From Sulfitobacter undariae (GTDB lineage: Bacteria; Pseudomonadota; Alphaproteobacteria; Rhodobacterales; Rhodobacteraceae): a stretch of 64,000 nucleotides of DNA. Where the stretch lies: NCBI RefSeq assembly GCF_014196805.1, contig NZ_JACIEI010000019.1:1-64000 (forward strand). The letters run 5' to 3'. A model generated the notes under the pieces. That model saw only the letters and a list, made by a program, of their open reading frames with translations. It was not told the DNA's origin and made no database searches. Below are positions 9,025 through 16,574 of this stretch, piece by piece. The translations under genes and the position numbers were made by a program. Each line of letters starts with the position of its first letter. Position 1 is the stretch's first letter.

Positions 9025-9076
9025 CAATGGCCTTGAGCGCATCAATATCATCAGGAAGATCAAAGGCGGATGTCAT
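9024..9076 (-). pseudogene. tnpC: IS66 TnpC, first ~18 codons only
   Basis: The ATG (complement ending at 9076) opens MTSAFDLPDDIDALKAIA, the standard N-terminus of IS66 TnpC transposases, which are normally about 500 residues. It lies 54 bases downstream of tnpB in the right orientation. Coding is lost at about 9024, where istA sequence starts on the other strand. Confidence 0.7.
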
Positions 9077-9130
9077 GCCTGTGAACTATCAAAATCAGAG
9101 GTAACCCGCCCGTGCAAAACACGATCCGAG

Positions 9131-9484
9131 TCATTCTGCCGCAGCCGGCGGGCGGGTCTCCAAGGCGGTCACACGACGCCAGTCGAGGCCCGCAAATAGG
9201 GCCTCAAATTGCGCAGCGTCCAGCCGCAAAATACCGTCCTTGATTGCAGGCCATTTGAACGCATTCTGTTCAAGCCGCTTGTAGGCCATCACCAGACCCG
9301 TGCCATCCCACCAGATCATCTTGAGTCGATCGGCGCGTTTGGCGCGGAACACATAGACAGCACCATCAAAGGGCTTCTTCTTGAGGTGGCTCTGCACCAG
9401 CGAGGCCAAACCATCGTGCCCCTTGCGGAAGTCCACAGGCTTGGTCGCAACAAATATCTGCACGCCATGCGACGGATGGATCAC
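9131..9484 (-). CDS. tnpB: IS66 accessory protein TnpB
   Basis: A 117-residue IS66 Orf2-type protein with the family pattern [47 protein letters not shown] and [11 protein letters not shown]. Its biochemical role in IS66 transposition is not established. It overlaps tnpA by 4 bases. The element around it is truncated, so it is probably no longer mobile by itself. Confidence 0.9.
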
Positions 9485-9861
9485 AGCGCAGCCGCGATCT
9501 CGGCGATCCGCGCGGCTGGCGTGTCTGCTGTCAGTCGGATCGTCACGTTACCCTTCAACACATCAATCACACCCATCTCAGTCTCGGGCACGTCCGGCAA
9601 ATCGGCAGAGGTCTCTTCAATGGCTACAGGGACAAACGAAACACCATCCAGGTTCGGCAGGACCAACTTGCCCTCACGTGCCATGCGACGCCATTCCGAC
9701 AGATGATTGGGCCGCAACCCATAGCGCCGGGCAACCGCGTTCACCGTAGCACCCTCAACCAGCGTTTCCGCCACAATCCGCGCCTTCACATCCTGCGGCC
9801 AGCGAGGACATCTACGACCACCTTTGCCCGCATCCGTGAGAAACTCTATCGTACCATCCAT
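9481..9861 (-). CDS. tnpA: IS66 TnpA (helix-turn-helix protein)
   Basis: A 126-residue IS3/IS911-like OrfA homologue of IS66 elements. The core is a helix-turn-helix with [46 protein letters not shown]. The C-terminal part ([21 protein letters not shown]) is also family-typical. It is the first gene of the truncated element, about 80 bases inside its end. Confidence 0.88.
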
Positions 9862-9943
9862 GGAGAAACTCCTTCAAATCCACGAAGCAAGGACTCGCAG
9901 AATAATCGCGGCATCGGAAGGTGGGGGCTAATCAGCGGTTACA

Positions 9944-10269
9944 TTACGTCGCGGTATTTGCCGCGAACATAAACATCGCGGAGGCATTCATCGGCGATCC
10001 GCCAAATGAAAGATACAAGGCCGTTGTGAGAGGTTTGATTCATTGTGTCCGCCTATATTTTGCGCTGCAAATATTGCCCTATACAGCGCTTAGATGTGAC
10101 ACCCGCATAGAGCAACCGATGCTGCCCGGACGAGTGGTTTTACTCTTCATTCAAGCCTGTCGACTCGTGTTTCTGGAGTTATGTTTTGCTTAGAAAGGGT
10201 ATGATAAGTTCCGAAAGGATACCGGTCCGATTAGCTGCATTCGAAGCGTGATTTGAATGTCCATTATGT
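9944..10269. other. Gap between the IS scar and the methylase-like operon
   Basis: No supported gene. An open frame of about 90 codons exists at 9921-10193, but it starts inside the IS66 end, lacks a ribosome-binding site and resembles nothing, so I treat it as chance. Confidence 0.5.
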
Positions 10270-12000
10270 TCATGGATTAACCTCTGTCATTTTCAGTTCT
10301 GCATGTGGCCAGCTCTGGTTTTTTATCTGATCAATAGCTTGGCGAATCCCATGCAATTTTTCGAAAGCATGCTGGCGCTTCTGAAATTCCTCGCCAACCT
10401 GTGCCTGCTGTTCTTTTGAGGGAACCGGAATTTGAAGTGCTGCCAGGTCCTTGGCGGTAATCGACTGGATTGCTGCGCCACCGGCAAGGGAGCCAATGTA
10501 ATCCTGAACAAGACCGTTGGAGAGGTACTCAAACAGGACCTCTGGTGAGATGCTTCCCTTTGATCGAAGGATCACGAGCGATTGTCCAGCAGTCCAGAAG
10601 CTGTCCTCGTCTAAGCCAGGCACGTTTTTCGGGATCATACCGGTTTTGCCGATGGTGCCCTTTACGGAAAGGAGAACGTCTCCTGGGCGAACCTGTTGGT
10701 TCCGCGCCTTGCGGAGTGCGCCTCGTGCAACCCTTGTTTCTTTCGGTGGACAGTTGAGGAAACCTTCCTCGCCGATGTCTCCCGGAGATGCCTCATGAAT
10801 GATGAATTCGCCATCCTCAGACTTCGGTATCGCGGCTGGCCGTATTACCTCTACGACATCGCCAAGAGGTCTGGTCTCATAGTTAGCAAGAAAGACAGAA
10901 AGAGCCTCGCCCGACTGTGTTCTCAGATACCGCTCCGCCGAGAGCACATCACTTTGATCATGGATTTCGCTGACAGCCACATCTCTGGCCCAAAGGACAT
11001 CGTCTGAGATTTCACAATCTATTGCTTCCGCCCATGACGTCTTCCGATCAATGTTATATCGTCCACGGTTCGCCTTGGTCGCAAACCGCTTGTCCGCAAG
11101 ATCTACGAAACGAATACTCTCCTCATGATGTCCCTTTGGCTTTAGGATGACGATACCGGTCGCAATCTGGGTTGTGGTATAGATCATGCTTGGCGGCACA
11201 GCGAAGACTGCGACAAGGCGACCCGAGTCGATGATCTCACTACGCGCGACAGCCTCGAAACCTACCGTACGAAATAGAGCGCCGGCCGTGAAGCTGAAGA
11301 CCACGCGTGCGTTCGGCGCGTGGACCAACATATCCGCCATAGCGACGGGCTCAAAATGCAGACGCCCTCGCTCGGCGGCGTCTATGCGCTCAAGTGTTTT
11401 GCGAGGCAGTTCCTCACGATCCCGGATGTTTGCACCAAATGGGGGCATGCAGATCTCGGCCTCAAAACTCCCACCGTCGATCCGGGAAAAAGGCTGGCCC
11501 GCGATGACGTCGATTGAAACGCCGATCGCGGCAGCCGCGAGCTTCACCAAGTCGCAGAGGTCAATGTCGGCATCAACGAAGCGCACATGGAGGAAGCGCT
11601 TGGCAATTTTTCCCTCCAGCGCAATCTGAAGAGCAGGCATCGCGGAAGGTCCAAAAGAGCAGCGCACGGATGCCACCTGCCCAGCCATTTCGGCGATTTT
11701 CTTTGCCGGAATGTCTTCGATAAGACCAAATTCAAAACGGCGGCTACCGTCGATATTTCCAAGCCGAGGCAGGGATGCAATCCGCTCTGCTTCACTCAAT
11801 TCAAGGAACATCCGTGCTGCTGACTGAAGGTGAGGGTAGCTCGGATTTTCCCGGCACTCCTGCCAATGTCTTTCAAGACCGCTATAAATTCCGGGCGCTT
11901 CACCGCTAATTTCGGCGACTTCGCGAAGGAGGACACCAGCTAACCGCTGAGGGTCGATGCTTCCACGAAGAGCATCAAGTTCTCTCCAAATATGCTTCAT
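10270..12000 (-). CDS. N6-methylase-like / type I specificity-like protein with degenerate catalytic motifs
   Basis: A 576-residue protein. The N-terminal two-thirds resembles a class I adenine-specific DNA methylase. Where motif IV should read NPP(F/Y) it has MPPFG (about residues 185-188), and the SAM-binding motif I region reads CSFGPSAMPALQ instead of a DPACGSG-like loop. The C-terminal third resembles an HsdS target-recognition unit: GDVLLSVKGTIGKTGMI, then GGAAIQSITAKDLAALQIPVPSKEQQ and a coiled-coil end. This suggests DNA recognition without methylation. The start at 12000 is chosen because the frame upstream of it overlaps the DUF4258 gene. It lies 7 bases downstream of that gene and is surely co-transcribed. 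No restriction subunit is adjacent. Alternative: a diverged but active enzyme. Confidence 0.7.
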   Translation of the reverse strand: MKHIWRELDALRGSIDPQRLAGVLLREVAEISGEAPGIYSGLERHWQECRENPSYPHLQSAARMFLELSEAERIASLPRLGNIDGSRRFEFGLIEDIPAKKIAEMAGQVASVRCSFGPSAMPALQIALEGKIAKRFLHVRFVDADIDLCDLVKLAAAAIGVSIDVIAGQPFSRIDGGSFEAEICMPPFGANIRDREELPRKTLERIDAAERGRLHFEPVAMADMLVHAPNARVVFSFTAGALFRTVGFEAVARSEIIDSGRLVAVFAVPPSMIYTTTQIATGIVILKPKGHHEESIRFVDLADKRFATKANRGRYNIDRKTSWAEAIDCEISDDVLWARDVAVSEIHDQSDVLSAERYLRTQSGEALSVFLANYETRPLGDVVEVIRPAAIPKSEDGEFIIHEASPGDIGEEGFLNCPPKETRVARGALRKARNQQVRPGDVLLSVKGTIGKTGMIPKNVPGLDEDSFWTAGQSLVILRSKGSISPEVLFEYLSNGLVQDYIGSLAGGAAIQSITAKDLAALQIPVPSKEQQAQVGEEFQKRQHAFEKLHGIRQAIDQIKNQSWPHAELKMTEVNP

Positions 12001-12007
12001 TTCAATA

Positions 12008-12289
12008 TCAACCTCTGACTTTTTTTGCGGCGGCCGCAGAAAATGAATTCGCGCGGTAGGCTGTGATAACATGCACTCCGTCAAGAACGAAGGCAATGCC
12101 ACCTTTCTTCGCGACTTCTTCAAGGGATTTGATCTCTTGCTTGAGTGCGACCATTCTTTGGCGAGCGGCCTTCGCCGACAAGACCATCTTGTCTCCGGTA
12201 TGCTCTCCATGGTCCATAACGAGCCCGAGGTGCTTCTTGTTGATGCCGCGCTGGTTCATCCGAGCGTCAGCGTGTGCCGTGATCCGCAT
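12008..12289 (-). CDS. DUF4258-like small protein
   Basis: A 93-residue protein: MRITAHADARMNQRGIN, then HGEHTGDKMVL, a Lys/Glu-rich helix (KQEIKSLEEVAKKGG) and the strand FVLDGVHVITAY. The H-A-x-x-R-M-x-x-R-G-I start and the late V-x-T-A/V-Y strand fit the DUF4258 pattern, whose function is unknown. It is the first gene of a two-gene operon with the methylase-like protein and is preceded by a palindromic promoter region. A 50-residue protein with the same motif order lies at 16196-16348. Confidence 0.6.
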   Translation of the reverse strand: MRITAHADARMNQRGINKKHLGLVMDHGEHTGDKMVLSAKAARQRMVALKQEIKSLEEVAKKGGIAFVLDGVHVITAYRANSFSAAAAKKVRG

Positions 12290-12322
12290 AGCGTTCTCCT
12301 TGTGCCGATGGGAGACATATAA

Positions 12323-12356
12323 ATTGATATGACATAAATATCAATAGCTGATATTG
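12323..12356 (-). promoter_or_regulatory. Promoter with embedded palindrome upstream of the DUF4258-methylase operon
   Basis: ATTGATAT-N7-ATATCAAT (12323-12345) is a perfect 8-bp inverted repeat, with a smaller CAATA-N5-TATTG overlapping it (12342-12356). Read on the minus strand, TTGATA is followed after 17 bases by TATATG, a plausible -35/-10 pair, so the palindrome would lie between and over the promoter boxes. This is the classic position for an autoregulatory operator. Confidence 0.5.
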
Positions 12357-12760: not shown

Positions 12761-13831
12761 TCACGGCACCCCCTTCTCAGCAAACCGCTTCTTGCAGAAC
12801 CCTACGAACGCCGCGTCAGCACTTTTCGGTACTTCACCAGCCCAGGCACGCCATTCCTGCTCAAGAACACGCACATCCCAACCGGGAGCCGCCGCCCGTG
12901 CCTTGTCATAGGTGTCGGACTTCAGAGGACCTATCTCGGGCCTATCTTTCCCTGTGACGGATACCACGGTTCCGCGGCTCTGAAACACCACCACATCGCG
13001 CTCCTCGTCGAACCTGACCAGGTAGTCAGGTAGGTGGTTGTGGGTCGCGATTTCCTTAAGGGTATGCCGGAAACGCTTCAGCTCGGTTCGGGCGCCAGTC
13101 CGCTTCAAAAGCTTGTTCAGTCCGATCTCGAATGATGTCTGCGATCCACACATCTTGCGCGCGATCTCATAGACCCGCCGCTCGATGGGTTTCCGCAACC
13201 GAAAGTAGTCGCGATGAAGCGTCAGGACGGACTTGCGGCGGATGCTGTTGAAGATCCACTCGCTGATCTCAATTTCAGCCCACATGATGCGGCCATCCTC
13301 AGCGTTGTTTTTCCTCTGGATGTGTGCTTTTTCAATGAGATGGAACCACCCAAGTCGCTCTTCATCGCCGAGAGGAAGTGCATCATCGGACCTCGCCGTG
13401 CTGATGTTAGTCTTGATCACCGTGCCCATGAGGCGGTCGATGGCCTCACAGAACGCTCCGTAGTCTTTGCCGCCGGTTCCGCGGTTCACAAAAATCAGAA
13501 GATCGCGCGGATTGAACCGTAGCCGACGTTCGACCTTTTCTCCACGATTCAACCGATGCATGATCTGCGAGACGACGTAGATGAGGATGTCCTTGTCGTA
13601 GATCGTAGCCTGTCCTTTTACGCTGGGAACGACTTCCAACCATTTTCCCTCATGCTCATAGCGACGGATCGCCGTATCAGGCTTCTTGCTCAGCGCGTAG
13701 AATGGGTGCTCCATACTCGGCATGAGATCCTTGAGCACGGCATCCGCAACATCACAGATGAAAAAGTCCGCTTGCGGATGACGATCAGGAAGCAGCTGAT
13801 CCAGCAGATTCGGGGTATCAGGAACGGGCAT
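12761..13831 (-). CDS. repA: RPA-type plasmid replication initiator
   Basis: A 356-residue initiator of the RPA family (Pfam PF10134 type) found on alphaproteobacterial plasmids. Recognisable blocks are FYALSKKPDTAIRRYEH, GQATIYDKDILIYVVSQI, RLMGTVIKTNI and RRKSVLTLHRDYFRLRKPIERRVYEIARK, the last a winged-helix segment. It should bind the iterons at 13809-14002 to open the origin. The first codons (MPVPDTPN) are themselves encoded by an iteron, so initiator binding would cover its own start region, which implies autoregulation. No second initiator domain or truncation is seen. Confidence 0.9.
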   Translation of the reverse strand: MPVPDTPNLLDQLLPDRHPQADFFICDVADAVLKDLMPSMEHPFYALSKKPDTAIRRYEHEGKWLEVVPSVKGQATIYDKDILIYVVSQIMHRLNRGEKVERRLRFNPRDLLIFVNRGTGGKDYGAFCEAIDRLMGTVIKTNISTARSDDALPLGDEERLGWFHLIEKAHIQRKNNAEDGRIMWAEIEISEWIFNSIRRKSVLTLHRDYFRLRKPIERRVYEIARKMCGSQTSFEIGLNKLLKRTGARTELKRFRHTLKEIATHNHLPDYLVRFDEERDVVVFQSRGTVVSVTGKDRPEIGPLKSDTYDKARAAAPGWDVRVLEQEWRAWAGEVPKSADAAFVGFCKKRFAEKGVP

Positions 13832-16077: not shown

Positions 16078-16160
16078 TATGATATTATAATTTATATAGT
16101 AATATCATATACCTAATAAAAAGTCAAAATATGACTTGCATTAAAAGTCATAAAATGACA
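16078..16160. promoter_or_regulatory. AT-rich control region with three palindromes
   Basis: TATGATATTA (16078-16087) and TAATATCATA (16100-16109) form a perfect 10-bp inverted repeat. Two further sites share one plan: AAGTCA-N5-TGACTT at 16121-16137 and AAGTCA-N5-TGACAC at 16145-16161, 24 bases apart. Two similar sites on the same helical repeat period (about 2.3 turns) directly before the gene at 16196 look like operators for a dimeric regulator. Confidence 0.55.
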
Positions 16161-16195: not shown

Positions 16196-16348
16196 ATGAA
16201 AACGAAGCACATGGAAATGCGCATGACGCAGCGGAAGATCGGTGGTGACATCATCGCACTGGTCGAAAAGTATGGTGAATTCAACGCTCGCGGTGACCAG
16301 ATCATCCTCACCAGGAGGATGATCCGGAAATTGCTGCAAGACAGCTGA
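16196..16348 (+). CDS. 50-residue protein with DUF4258-like motif order
   Basis: The frame reads MKTKHMEMRMTQRKIG, then ALVEKYGEFNARGDQIILT and ends RKLLQDS. Its H-x-x-x-R-M-x-Q-R-x-I, L-V-x-x-y-G-E and G-D-x-x-x-L elements line up with the N-terminal half of the protein at 12008-12289. It therefore looks like a minimal member of the same family, lacking the C-terminal strand. It starts 35 bases after the paired palindromes and is the first gene of the run to 21.2 kb. It is short, so it could be a fragment. Confidence 0.5.
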   Translation: MKTKHMEMRMTQRKIGGDIIALVEKYGEFNARGDQIILTRRMIRKLLQDS

Positions 16349-16418
16349 TACAGATCCCGACATCCACGCTGCCCTTTACCAGCCCACAATCATCCACCCT
16401 GCCAGGAGGCAACCACCA

Positions 16419-16574
16419 ATGTTCACATCGATTAGCGTCGAAGAGAGAAAACTGCTCGAGCGCGTCCTGAAGAGGGGCGGAGCAACCCTCGTCGTAGCGG
16501 ACGGCGGCGAGGTGAAGATCACAACTTACTATAACACATCGCCTCTGCGCGACTCCCGGGTGCGGCATGACTGA
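16419..16574 (+). CDS. Small unknown protein
   Basis: A 51-residue frame beginning MFTSISVEERKLLERVLKRGG and ending PLRDSRVRHD. AGGAGG lies 8 bases upstream of its ATG, a strong ribosome-binding site. Its stop overlaps the next start (16567), so it is translationally coupled to the 167-residue protein. No family is recognised; the body is a helix followed by two predicted strands. Confidence 0.5.
   Translation: MFTSISVEERKLLERVLKRGGATLVVADGGEVKITTYYNTSPLRDSRVRHD

Follow-up and report, generated by a model that had tools for sequence, protein, structure and literature searches.

A DUF4258 protein and a putative pseudo-methyltransferase at the head of Type I restriction operons: a possible toxin-antitoxin-like module

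Introduction

Type I restriction is among the commonest bacterial defences, and few dedicated controllers or safeguards of it are known. PrrC, one protein associated with such systems, combines an ABC-ATPase with an anticodon-nuclease domain. The closest described arrangements are given here as excerpts of the respective papers present them. In EcoprrI, the gene of PrrC, a ribonuclease (RNase)-type killer, lies within the Type I operon, and the anticodon nuclease is kept latent by the restriction-modification (R-M) complex until it is released by T4 (PMC3874165). Some Type I operons are headed by repeat DNA and a small gene for RptR, a regulator of 79 amino acids whose helix 4 binds TAGCTA (PMC12255303). 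In the pneumococcal SpnIV/tvr locus, tvrAT, a toxin-antitoxin (TA)-like pair of phd-doc orthologues located between hsdM and hsdR among hsdS pieces, acts on the recombinase gene (PMC6265443). Here, we analyzed a stretch of 64,000 nucleotides (hereafter the window), positions 1 to 64,000 of contig NZ_JACIEI010000019.1 of Sulfitobacter undariae (assembly GCF_014196805.1), in which two adjoining genes encode a DUF4258-family protein and a methylase-like protein fused to an HsdS-type recognition domain (hereafter M/S):

10270-12000, minus strand: M/S, a putative pseudo-methyltransferase (N6_Mtase fold without the motif IV Asn and without the S-adenosylmethionine (SAM) loop), one HsdS-type target-recognition domain (TRD) and a long C-terminal helix, 529-562 (open reading frame, Pfam, alignment, model)
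12008-12289, minus strand: DUF4258-family small protein, 93 amino acids (open reading frame, Pfam, 20-member alignment)

The stop codon of the DUF4258 gene and the ATG of M/S are 7 bp apart, and, as in Type II TA systems with BECR-fold toxins (PF14076), a toxin-family gene stands beside a gene for a DNA-recognition fold with a palindrome upstream. However, the antitoxins of such systems are small helix-turn-helix (HTH) or ribbon-helix-helix proteins, whereas the partner here is a predicted pseudo-methylase/specificity protein of 576 amino acids heading a restriction operon, and the pair is known from genes alone. With EcoprrI the pair would share a killer gene of the RNase type in a Type I operon, but PrrC is held by the R-M complex itself, whereas the candidate here is a small DUF4258 protein with an apparently dead M/S of its own; searching this protein against Pfam up to E 10 returned four families, with DUF4258 the best and no ATPase. 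RptR islands likewise combine repeat DNA with a small gene at the start of a Type I operon, and tvrAT is also a TA-like pair inside a Type I locus, but no pseudo-methylase is described in the excerpted accounts of either, that of RptR being compared by its description (PMC12255303; PMC6265443). M-S gamma-methyltransferases, such as the V. vulnificus YJ016 methyltransferase (MTase, PDB 7eew) and M.DrdI, resemble M/S in joining a methylase and a recognition domain in one chain with a C-terminal helix. They are active enzymes, however, whereas M/S has lost the catalytic Asn and its close family also the SAM loop. Membership in the methylation-associated defence system (MADS) was rejected, the MAD5 model scoring 41.2 bits against a curated cut-off of 400 with the S domain alone aligning. 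In the open-licence PubMed Central (PMC) literature, we found no published description of the five-gene operon presented below, and nothing on the DUF4258-M/S arrangement among publications on DUF4258 and R-M.

Operon Context in Relatives

Scanning 84,980 species genomes with an alignment of four sequences yielded 23 loci (numbered with L below). Their neighbour genes were typed by BLAST comparison with seed proteins, whose labels were checked on examples, those of HsdM, HsdS, HsdR, TniQ and TniB by Pfam and that of TniA via its Mu-transposase domain. The gene order in these relatives is DUF4258-M/S-hsdM-hsdS-hsdR. The DUF4258 gene is present upstream of M/S in 20 of the 23 loci, one copy (L065) being broken by an in-frame stop, and is missing in L060, L062 (where a weak remnant is left) and L067, while M/S is intact in all four of these loci. 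HsdM follows M/S directly in 21 of 23 (split in L060, and truncated where the contigs of L047, L049 and L066 end); the two loci without an HsdM call are L065, whose contig ends 382 bases past the match, and L067. Nineteen loci extend far enough to show HsdR, which is present in 18 of them and missing from L067; the contigs of L047, L049, L065 and L066 end before HsdR. The initial annotation had regarded the pair as standing apart from restriction, a view that this neighbourhood does not support. Its statement that the locus is not an R-M system holds for the window copy alone, but not for the relatives, where the pair fronts complete Type I operons.

The DUF4258 gene, M/S and HsdM are likewise present in L103 and L104 (L102 is probably identical with L053), and the same head is carried by plasmids. 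It precedes Type I genes in Roseovarius S88, where M/S is split, M and S genes in Sulfuricurvum, where the next gene has no Pfam match, and Type I genes in R-M-S order in Aromatoleum. On an Aliivibrio plasmid M/S is followed by HsdM across the origin of the circular record, and on a Lactococcus plasmid it occurs with M and S; in neither of these two was DUF4258 found by profile in the stretch examined. Oscillatoria has the DUF4258-M/S pair with no HsdM downstream, and in Roseomonas DUF4258 stands with a split M/S, followed at some distance by S and R genes. Overall, the pair occurs in Pseudomonadota, Campylobacterota and Cyanobacteriota, and relatives of M/S without DUF4258 occur in Bacillota. 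No M/S relatives were found among viral_contigs or phages, the scan of viral_contigs being insensitive as it uses short motifs, and no DUF4258 relatives were found in phages, the one of these two sets scanned for them.

Upstream of the pair, tni genes or fragments of them are present in 10 of the 23 loci (fragments only in L060, tniQ only in L066). Furthermore, two distant M/S-like proteins adjoin tni genes (L041:9125-10882 and L042:7863-9611, the TniQ of L041 being confirmed by Pfam), and neither L041 nor L042 has a DUF4258 by profile. A role as Tn7-type target selector was considered for these reasons. However, hsdM, hsdS and hsdR are all present in six of the ten tni loci, and no tni gene appears in the stretch examined of 13 of the 23 loci; we therefore prefer to view the operon as cargo of tni elements.

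The Window Copy as an Operon Remnant

Downstream of the pair, the window contains two further features:

9944-10046, minus strand: 5' remnant of hsdM, about 34 codons, the third gene of the ancestral operon (tblastn and frame reading)
9026-9943, minus strand: piece of an IS66-type element interrupting hsdM (DNA 85.4% identical to IS66 genes annotated on an Octadecabacter plasmid)

In tblastn, HsdM of L048 aligned to window positions 10049-9930 on the minus strand with 82.5% identity over 40 amino acids (E 9.6e-17), the match beginning MNQTSHNGLVSFIWRIADECLRDVYVRGKYRDV. The hsdM frame breaks at about 9944, and IS66-type sequence with two open reading frames (9131-9484, 117 amino acids; 9481-9861, 126 amino acids) comes next. 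No other piece of hsdM, hsdS or hsdR was detected in the window with ten seeds by tblastn, and one HsdS and four HsdR seeds gave chance-level matches only (best E 0.04). The observation in the initial annotation that no restriction subunit is present is therefore upheld: hsdS and hsdR are absent from the window, hsdM is a stub, and neither an HsdM with NPPF/Y nor an HsdR or two-domain HsdS adjoins the pair, which leaves no intact Type I system. The window pair is the remnant of a complete Type I operon, left behind when an IS66-type mobile element cut away the restriction genes. The window belongs to contig C19 (64,214 bp) of a genome of 3.85 Mb, and this replicon is likely a plasmid, because it carries a RepA-type replication gene at 12761-13831 (PF10134). 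Three other Type I loci, with N6_Mtase and HSDR_N matches, are located elsewhere in the genome (G000 contigs C1, C9 and C12), and their HsdM are 24-30% identical to the seeds.

A Methylase-Like Protein Without the Catalytic Asparagine

Open reading frames and Pfam agree with the initial description of a methylase/HsdS fusion beside a small DUF4258-like gene. The M/S frame comprises 576 amino acids plus stop, with Methylase_S at 374-542 (E 5e-10) and the C-terminal part only of N6_Mtase at 229-364 (profile positions 174-307 of 311, E 8.3e-8), both in coordinates of a translation starting one codon early. Motif IV of the window protein reads MPPFG (residues 185-189), and in the alignment its Asn is replaced in all 24 family members, window included, the variants being MPPFG, MSPFG, MAPFG, FPPFG, LPPFG, FPPLG, LPMLG, FPMLG and similar. 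The Asn is also replaced in five distant M/S from four phyla (Aliivibrio FPPFN, Aromatoleum FPPMG, Sulfuricurvum IPPFG, Oscillatoria FPPFG and Lactococcus VPPFG), a count that excludes the split Roseomonas M/S, whose motif region is disrupted. As a control, HsdM was examined in 22 of these operons; all 22 carry NPPF or NPPY, and in 19 of 22 a DP-type SAM motif matched a simple pattern.

In an AF2 model of M/S built from 24 sequences (predicted local distance difference test score, pLDDT, 83.9; predicted template modelling score, pTM, 0.77), no glycine-rich SAM loop is seen in the close family, because strand 111-115 runs almost directly, with nearly no loop, into helix 117-132. Lactococcus M/S retains a motif-I-like DATAGTAG, and the loss of the Asn is therefore a wider feature of M/S than the loss of the SAM loop. 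The initial annotation had called M/S a degenerate methylase and had named a predicted structure with an intact SAM site and an NPPF equivalent as evidence to the contrary; neither was found in sequence or model. Residues 1-363 of the model match Type I M subunits (2okc, Z 21.3, 4.3 A over 342; 3khk, Z 21.1, 3.5 A over 341; PacII 7vs4, Z 21.1, 4.0 A over 343), and the C-terminal part matches S subunits (VIA; 1yf2, Z 16.0, 3.2 A over 182; HsdS 3okg, Z 14.3, 3.4 A over 158) as well as the protein Esub1 (8vsq, Z 18.8, 2.9 A over 195). The top Foldseek match is 7eew, an MTase complexed with Ocr whose chain covers both parts of M/S (E 1.5e-11, template modelling scores 0.39/0.37), and PacII M1M2S is also among the fold matches. 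By its Methylase_S match and its similarity to 1yf2, the neighbour of DUF4258 carries a DNA-recognition fold, at the level of fold only, and, taken together, sequence and model suggest that M/S is a pseudo-methyltransferase.

In two loci, M/S is split near motif IV into two frames that overlap by four bases (L030:7830-9532 and L086:4940-6834), and a homopolymer sequencing error is possible for L030.

The DUF4258 Protein

The DUF4258 model PF14076 is matched by 19 of 20 family members (best E 1.6e-4), and by the window protein at E 0.0043, under the curated cut-off. Besides the start, H6, R10, N12, R14, I16, G28, G32, D33, L37, L56, K62, G63, G64, T76 and Y78 are invariant in the 20-row alignment. 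In a wider set of 17 proteins, H6, R10 and R14 are present in all, and T76 and Y78 in 16, Roseomonas being the exception. PF_DUF4258 is listed, with its target unknown, among 13 families of BECR-fold (RelE-like) toxins in the excerpt available of Gerdes (2025, PMC11980606), which fits the TA-like character suggested initially. Similarly, a Synechocystis DUF4258 gene adjoining a HicB antitoxin gene was predicted to encode a toxin, as an excerpted account has it (PMC4963859).

When 390 genomes of the order were searched by profile, 13 had DUF4258 relatives: six were close, with best E of 1.2e-37 or lower, six were distant (L105-L110), and one was a short match (G258). The six distant relatives have another gene directly upstream in place of M/S, in which Pfam recognizes an HTH in five of six (above the curated cut-off in four, below it in L108) and gives no match in L107. 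This upstream gene encodes 236-364 amino acids, and in five of these loci a gene of 172-207 amino acids comes after DUF4258; two of the latter were scanned and had no Pfam match. L109 and L110 look prophage-like, with tape-measure-like frames. Two further weak relatives, L111 and L112, came from a search of 398 genomes of the phylum; in L112 the DUF4258 relative (2460-2756) lies just 5' of a gene for 1033 amino acids.

Selection and Co-Divergence

For 18 loci with an intact DUF4258 gene and a usable HsdM (a set outside which L060, L062, L065, L066, L067, the window and the plasmids fall), pairwise distances correlate at 0.897 between DUF4258 and M/S, at 0.467 between DUF4258 and HsdM, and at 0.538 between M/S and HsdM. 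Together with the conserved gene order, this bears out the coupling of the two genes proposed in the initial annotation. In ten chosen pairs, one with a synonymous rate (dS) above 1, the ratio of nonsynonymous to synonymous rates (dN/dS) was 0.08-0.27 for DUF4258 and 0.12-0.32 for M/S, and by these sequence comparisons both genes are under purifying selection. M/S has full-length frames in 23 of 23 genome loci, and the Asn loss is common to six class- or phylum-level lineages.

Five near-identical operons (L030 and L053-L056) allow a closer comparison. Identities among them are 96.2-98.1% for HsdM, 97.1-98.8% for HsdR, 92.7-97.1% for DUF4258 and 82.0-92.6% for M/S (four unsplit copies; 77.8-97.4% for the halves of L030), whereas HsdS is only 38.6-83.6% identical. 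The M/S differences are scattered, and its recognition domain was not replaced while hsdS swapped its own; therefore, M/S does not track the specificity of HsdS. The idea of a methylation-sensing regulator matched to its own HsdS was lowered on the same grounds, hsdS being 39-84% identical in five operons whose M/S domain is unreplaced.

Upstream Palindromes

Two repeats lie 5' of the DUF4258 gene in the window:

12323-12345, no strand assigned: inverted repeat ATTGATAT-N7-ATATCAAT, candidate operator (repeat search)
12337-12355, no strand assigned: inverted repeat AATATCA-N5-TGATATT, overlapping the first (repeat search)

Both of these overlapping repeats are perfect, and when 110 bases were dinucleotide-shuffled 100 times for comparison, the better repeat reached p = 0.03. 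We read TTGATA-N17-TATATG, which runs across the repeats on the minus strand, as a putative promoter. Of the palindrome over a promoter described in the initial annotation, the palindrome is thus confirmed, but a scan for consensus promoters returned no minus-strand promoter at 12323-12355. Long inverted repeats also occur 5' of the DUF4258 gene in L069 (16-bp arms, upstream of 9540) and L033 (13-bp arms, upstream of 5031), the latter spanning a TTGACT element resembling a -35 box. No operator motif common to the upstream regions was apparent by eye, no motif finder being used.

Possible Functions of the Pair

Taken together, we tentatively hypothesize, with somewhat less than even confidence, that the pair is a TA-like, self-regulated module that heads Type I operons and guards or times restriction. 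DUF4258 would be an RNase-type toxin of the BECR fold, and M/S its DNA-binding partner, taking the place of the usual HTH antitoxin; the exchange of partners in L105-L110, where a different gene, with an HTH in five of six, lies upstream of DUF4258, is counted in favour of this hypothesis, and so is the polarity of gene loss, M/S being intact in the loci where DUF4258 is absent or broken. Single-chain enzymes of a methylase plus a TRD with C-terminal helices, such as M.DrdI, act as homodimers on interrupted palindromes, according to an excerpted account (PMC3874165), and the helix 529-562 of M/S and the interrupted palindrome upstream fit such binding. By analogy with these homodimeric gamma-MTases, M/S may bind the interrupted palindrome in the promoter of its own operon and hold DUF4258 in check, so that the toxin would be set free and the operon derepressed once M/S is lost or blocked. 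As a result, restriction genes would be stabilized on plasmids and transposons, and attacks on them would be answered.

Several points weigh against this hypothesis. Toxicity, neutralization and DNA binding are each inferred from sequence and analogy. The BECR fold of DUF4258 is taken from family membership, because the model built from 20 sequences is weak (pLDDT 78.8, pTM 0.57) and Foldseek gave nothing below E 2.1 against the PDB; a sequence-profile search returned matches of E 0.0005-0.5 to designed TIM barrels and the like, from which no fold is claimed. In L111 and L112, neither M/S nor an evident HTH partner is in the list of open reading frames, and on Aeromonas and Acinetobacter plasmids, DUF4258 relatives that lack M/S adjoin other genes; therefore, the partner is not fixed in the wider DUF4258 family. 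The DUF4258 gene also stands beside a split M/S in L030 and L086, which a lethal toxin should not tolerate unless the two halves remain functional, the toxin itself is inactive (T76 and Y78 are missing from the L086 copy) or the L030 split is a homopolymer error. Palindromes with p <= 0.03 were found in only 6 of 23 promoters (window, L030, L033, L053, L057 and L069), those of L030 and L053 at -27 to -3 being too close to the start codon; this test left out the broken L065, and related promoters are non-independent. Moreover, M/S varies more than HsdM and HsdR in the five near-identical operons. Finally, for the TA-like tvrAT pair no addiction was found and a regulatory action was reported instead, as excerpted (PMC6265443).

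The last point leads to a reading that we consider possible but rather unlikely, in which DUF4258 is no toxin and M/S, alone or aided by DUF4258 as co-factor, acts as a transcriptional controller, repressing the restriction genes so as to delay or limit them after entry into a new host. C proteins delay restriction genes in this manner in Type II systems. The position at the head of the operon, the upstream palindromes and the fixed recognition domain are consistent with such a controller, and so are the precedents, in excerpt, of RptR, a small repressor heading some Type I operons (PMC12255303), and of TvrT, which lowered transcription of the recombinase gene (PMC6265443). However, a repressor alone would explain neither the methylase-like body of M/S nor the invariant H/R/R/T/Y of a RelE-type family, and the window pair is intact though nothing adjoining is left to control. 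It is improbable that M/S acts as an accessory subunit that joins HsdM, HsdS and HsdR as a catalytically dead M-S half and tunes activity or specificity. The fold of M/S resembles M and S subunits of Type I systems (7eew, 2okc and PacII M1M2S), and Type I genes adjoin M/S in most loci seen, both of which would suit this role. However, close-family M/S pairs with differing HsdM types (best seed HsdM_a or HsdM_b) and keeps its recognition domain when hsdS changes, and orphan M/S exist (window, L067 and Oscillatoria). Far less probable still is that M/S is a decaying, functionless methylase gene: the lost catalytic motif and the cut hsdM next to it in the window might suggest so, but purifying selection, the full-length frames and the same loss in six lineages refute this for the family, although the window copy alone could still be dying.

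A further variant brings in Ocr and ArdA, anti-restriction proteins by which phages and plasmids switch restriction off; both mimic DNA and bind the M-S core. The dead M/S might mimic the Type I methylase core and hold the DUF4258 RNase, and Ocr or ArdA, in binding this bait, would free the toxin and abort infection. Such a guard would be a PrrC-like alarm, by analogy, with a dedicated pseudo-enzyme as sensor, and we regard it as fairly improbable.

Found in several phyla, on plasmids and on tni transposons, the two-gene head would serve Type I restriction as a general accessory, and it gives the DUF4258 toxin family a concrete context and a candidate partner. It also raises the question of whether a catalytically dead methylase serves as antitoxin or as bait for anti-restriction proteins.

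Additional Observations

Enemella is an actinomycete, yet the operon of L049, which is on a contig of an Enemella assembly, resembles the Rhodobacteraceae copies, and contamination seems likely. In the window itself, a second DUF4258 gene is present at 16196-16571 on the plus strand as two short frames of 50 and 51 amino acids, the second of which overlaps the start of a gene for 167 amino acids at 16567. A perfect palindrome with 10-bp arms lies 5' of this gene at 16078-16109 and has the TGATAT core in common with the repeats at 12323-12355.

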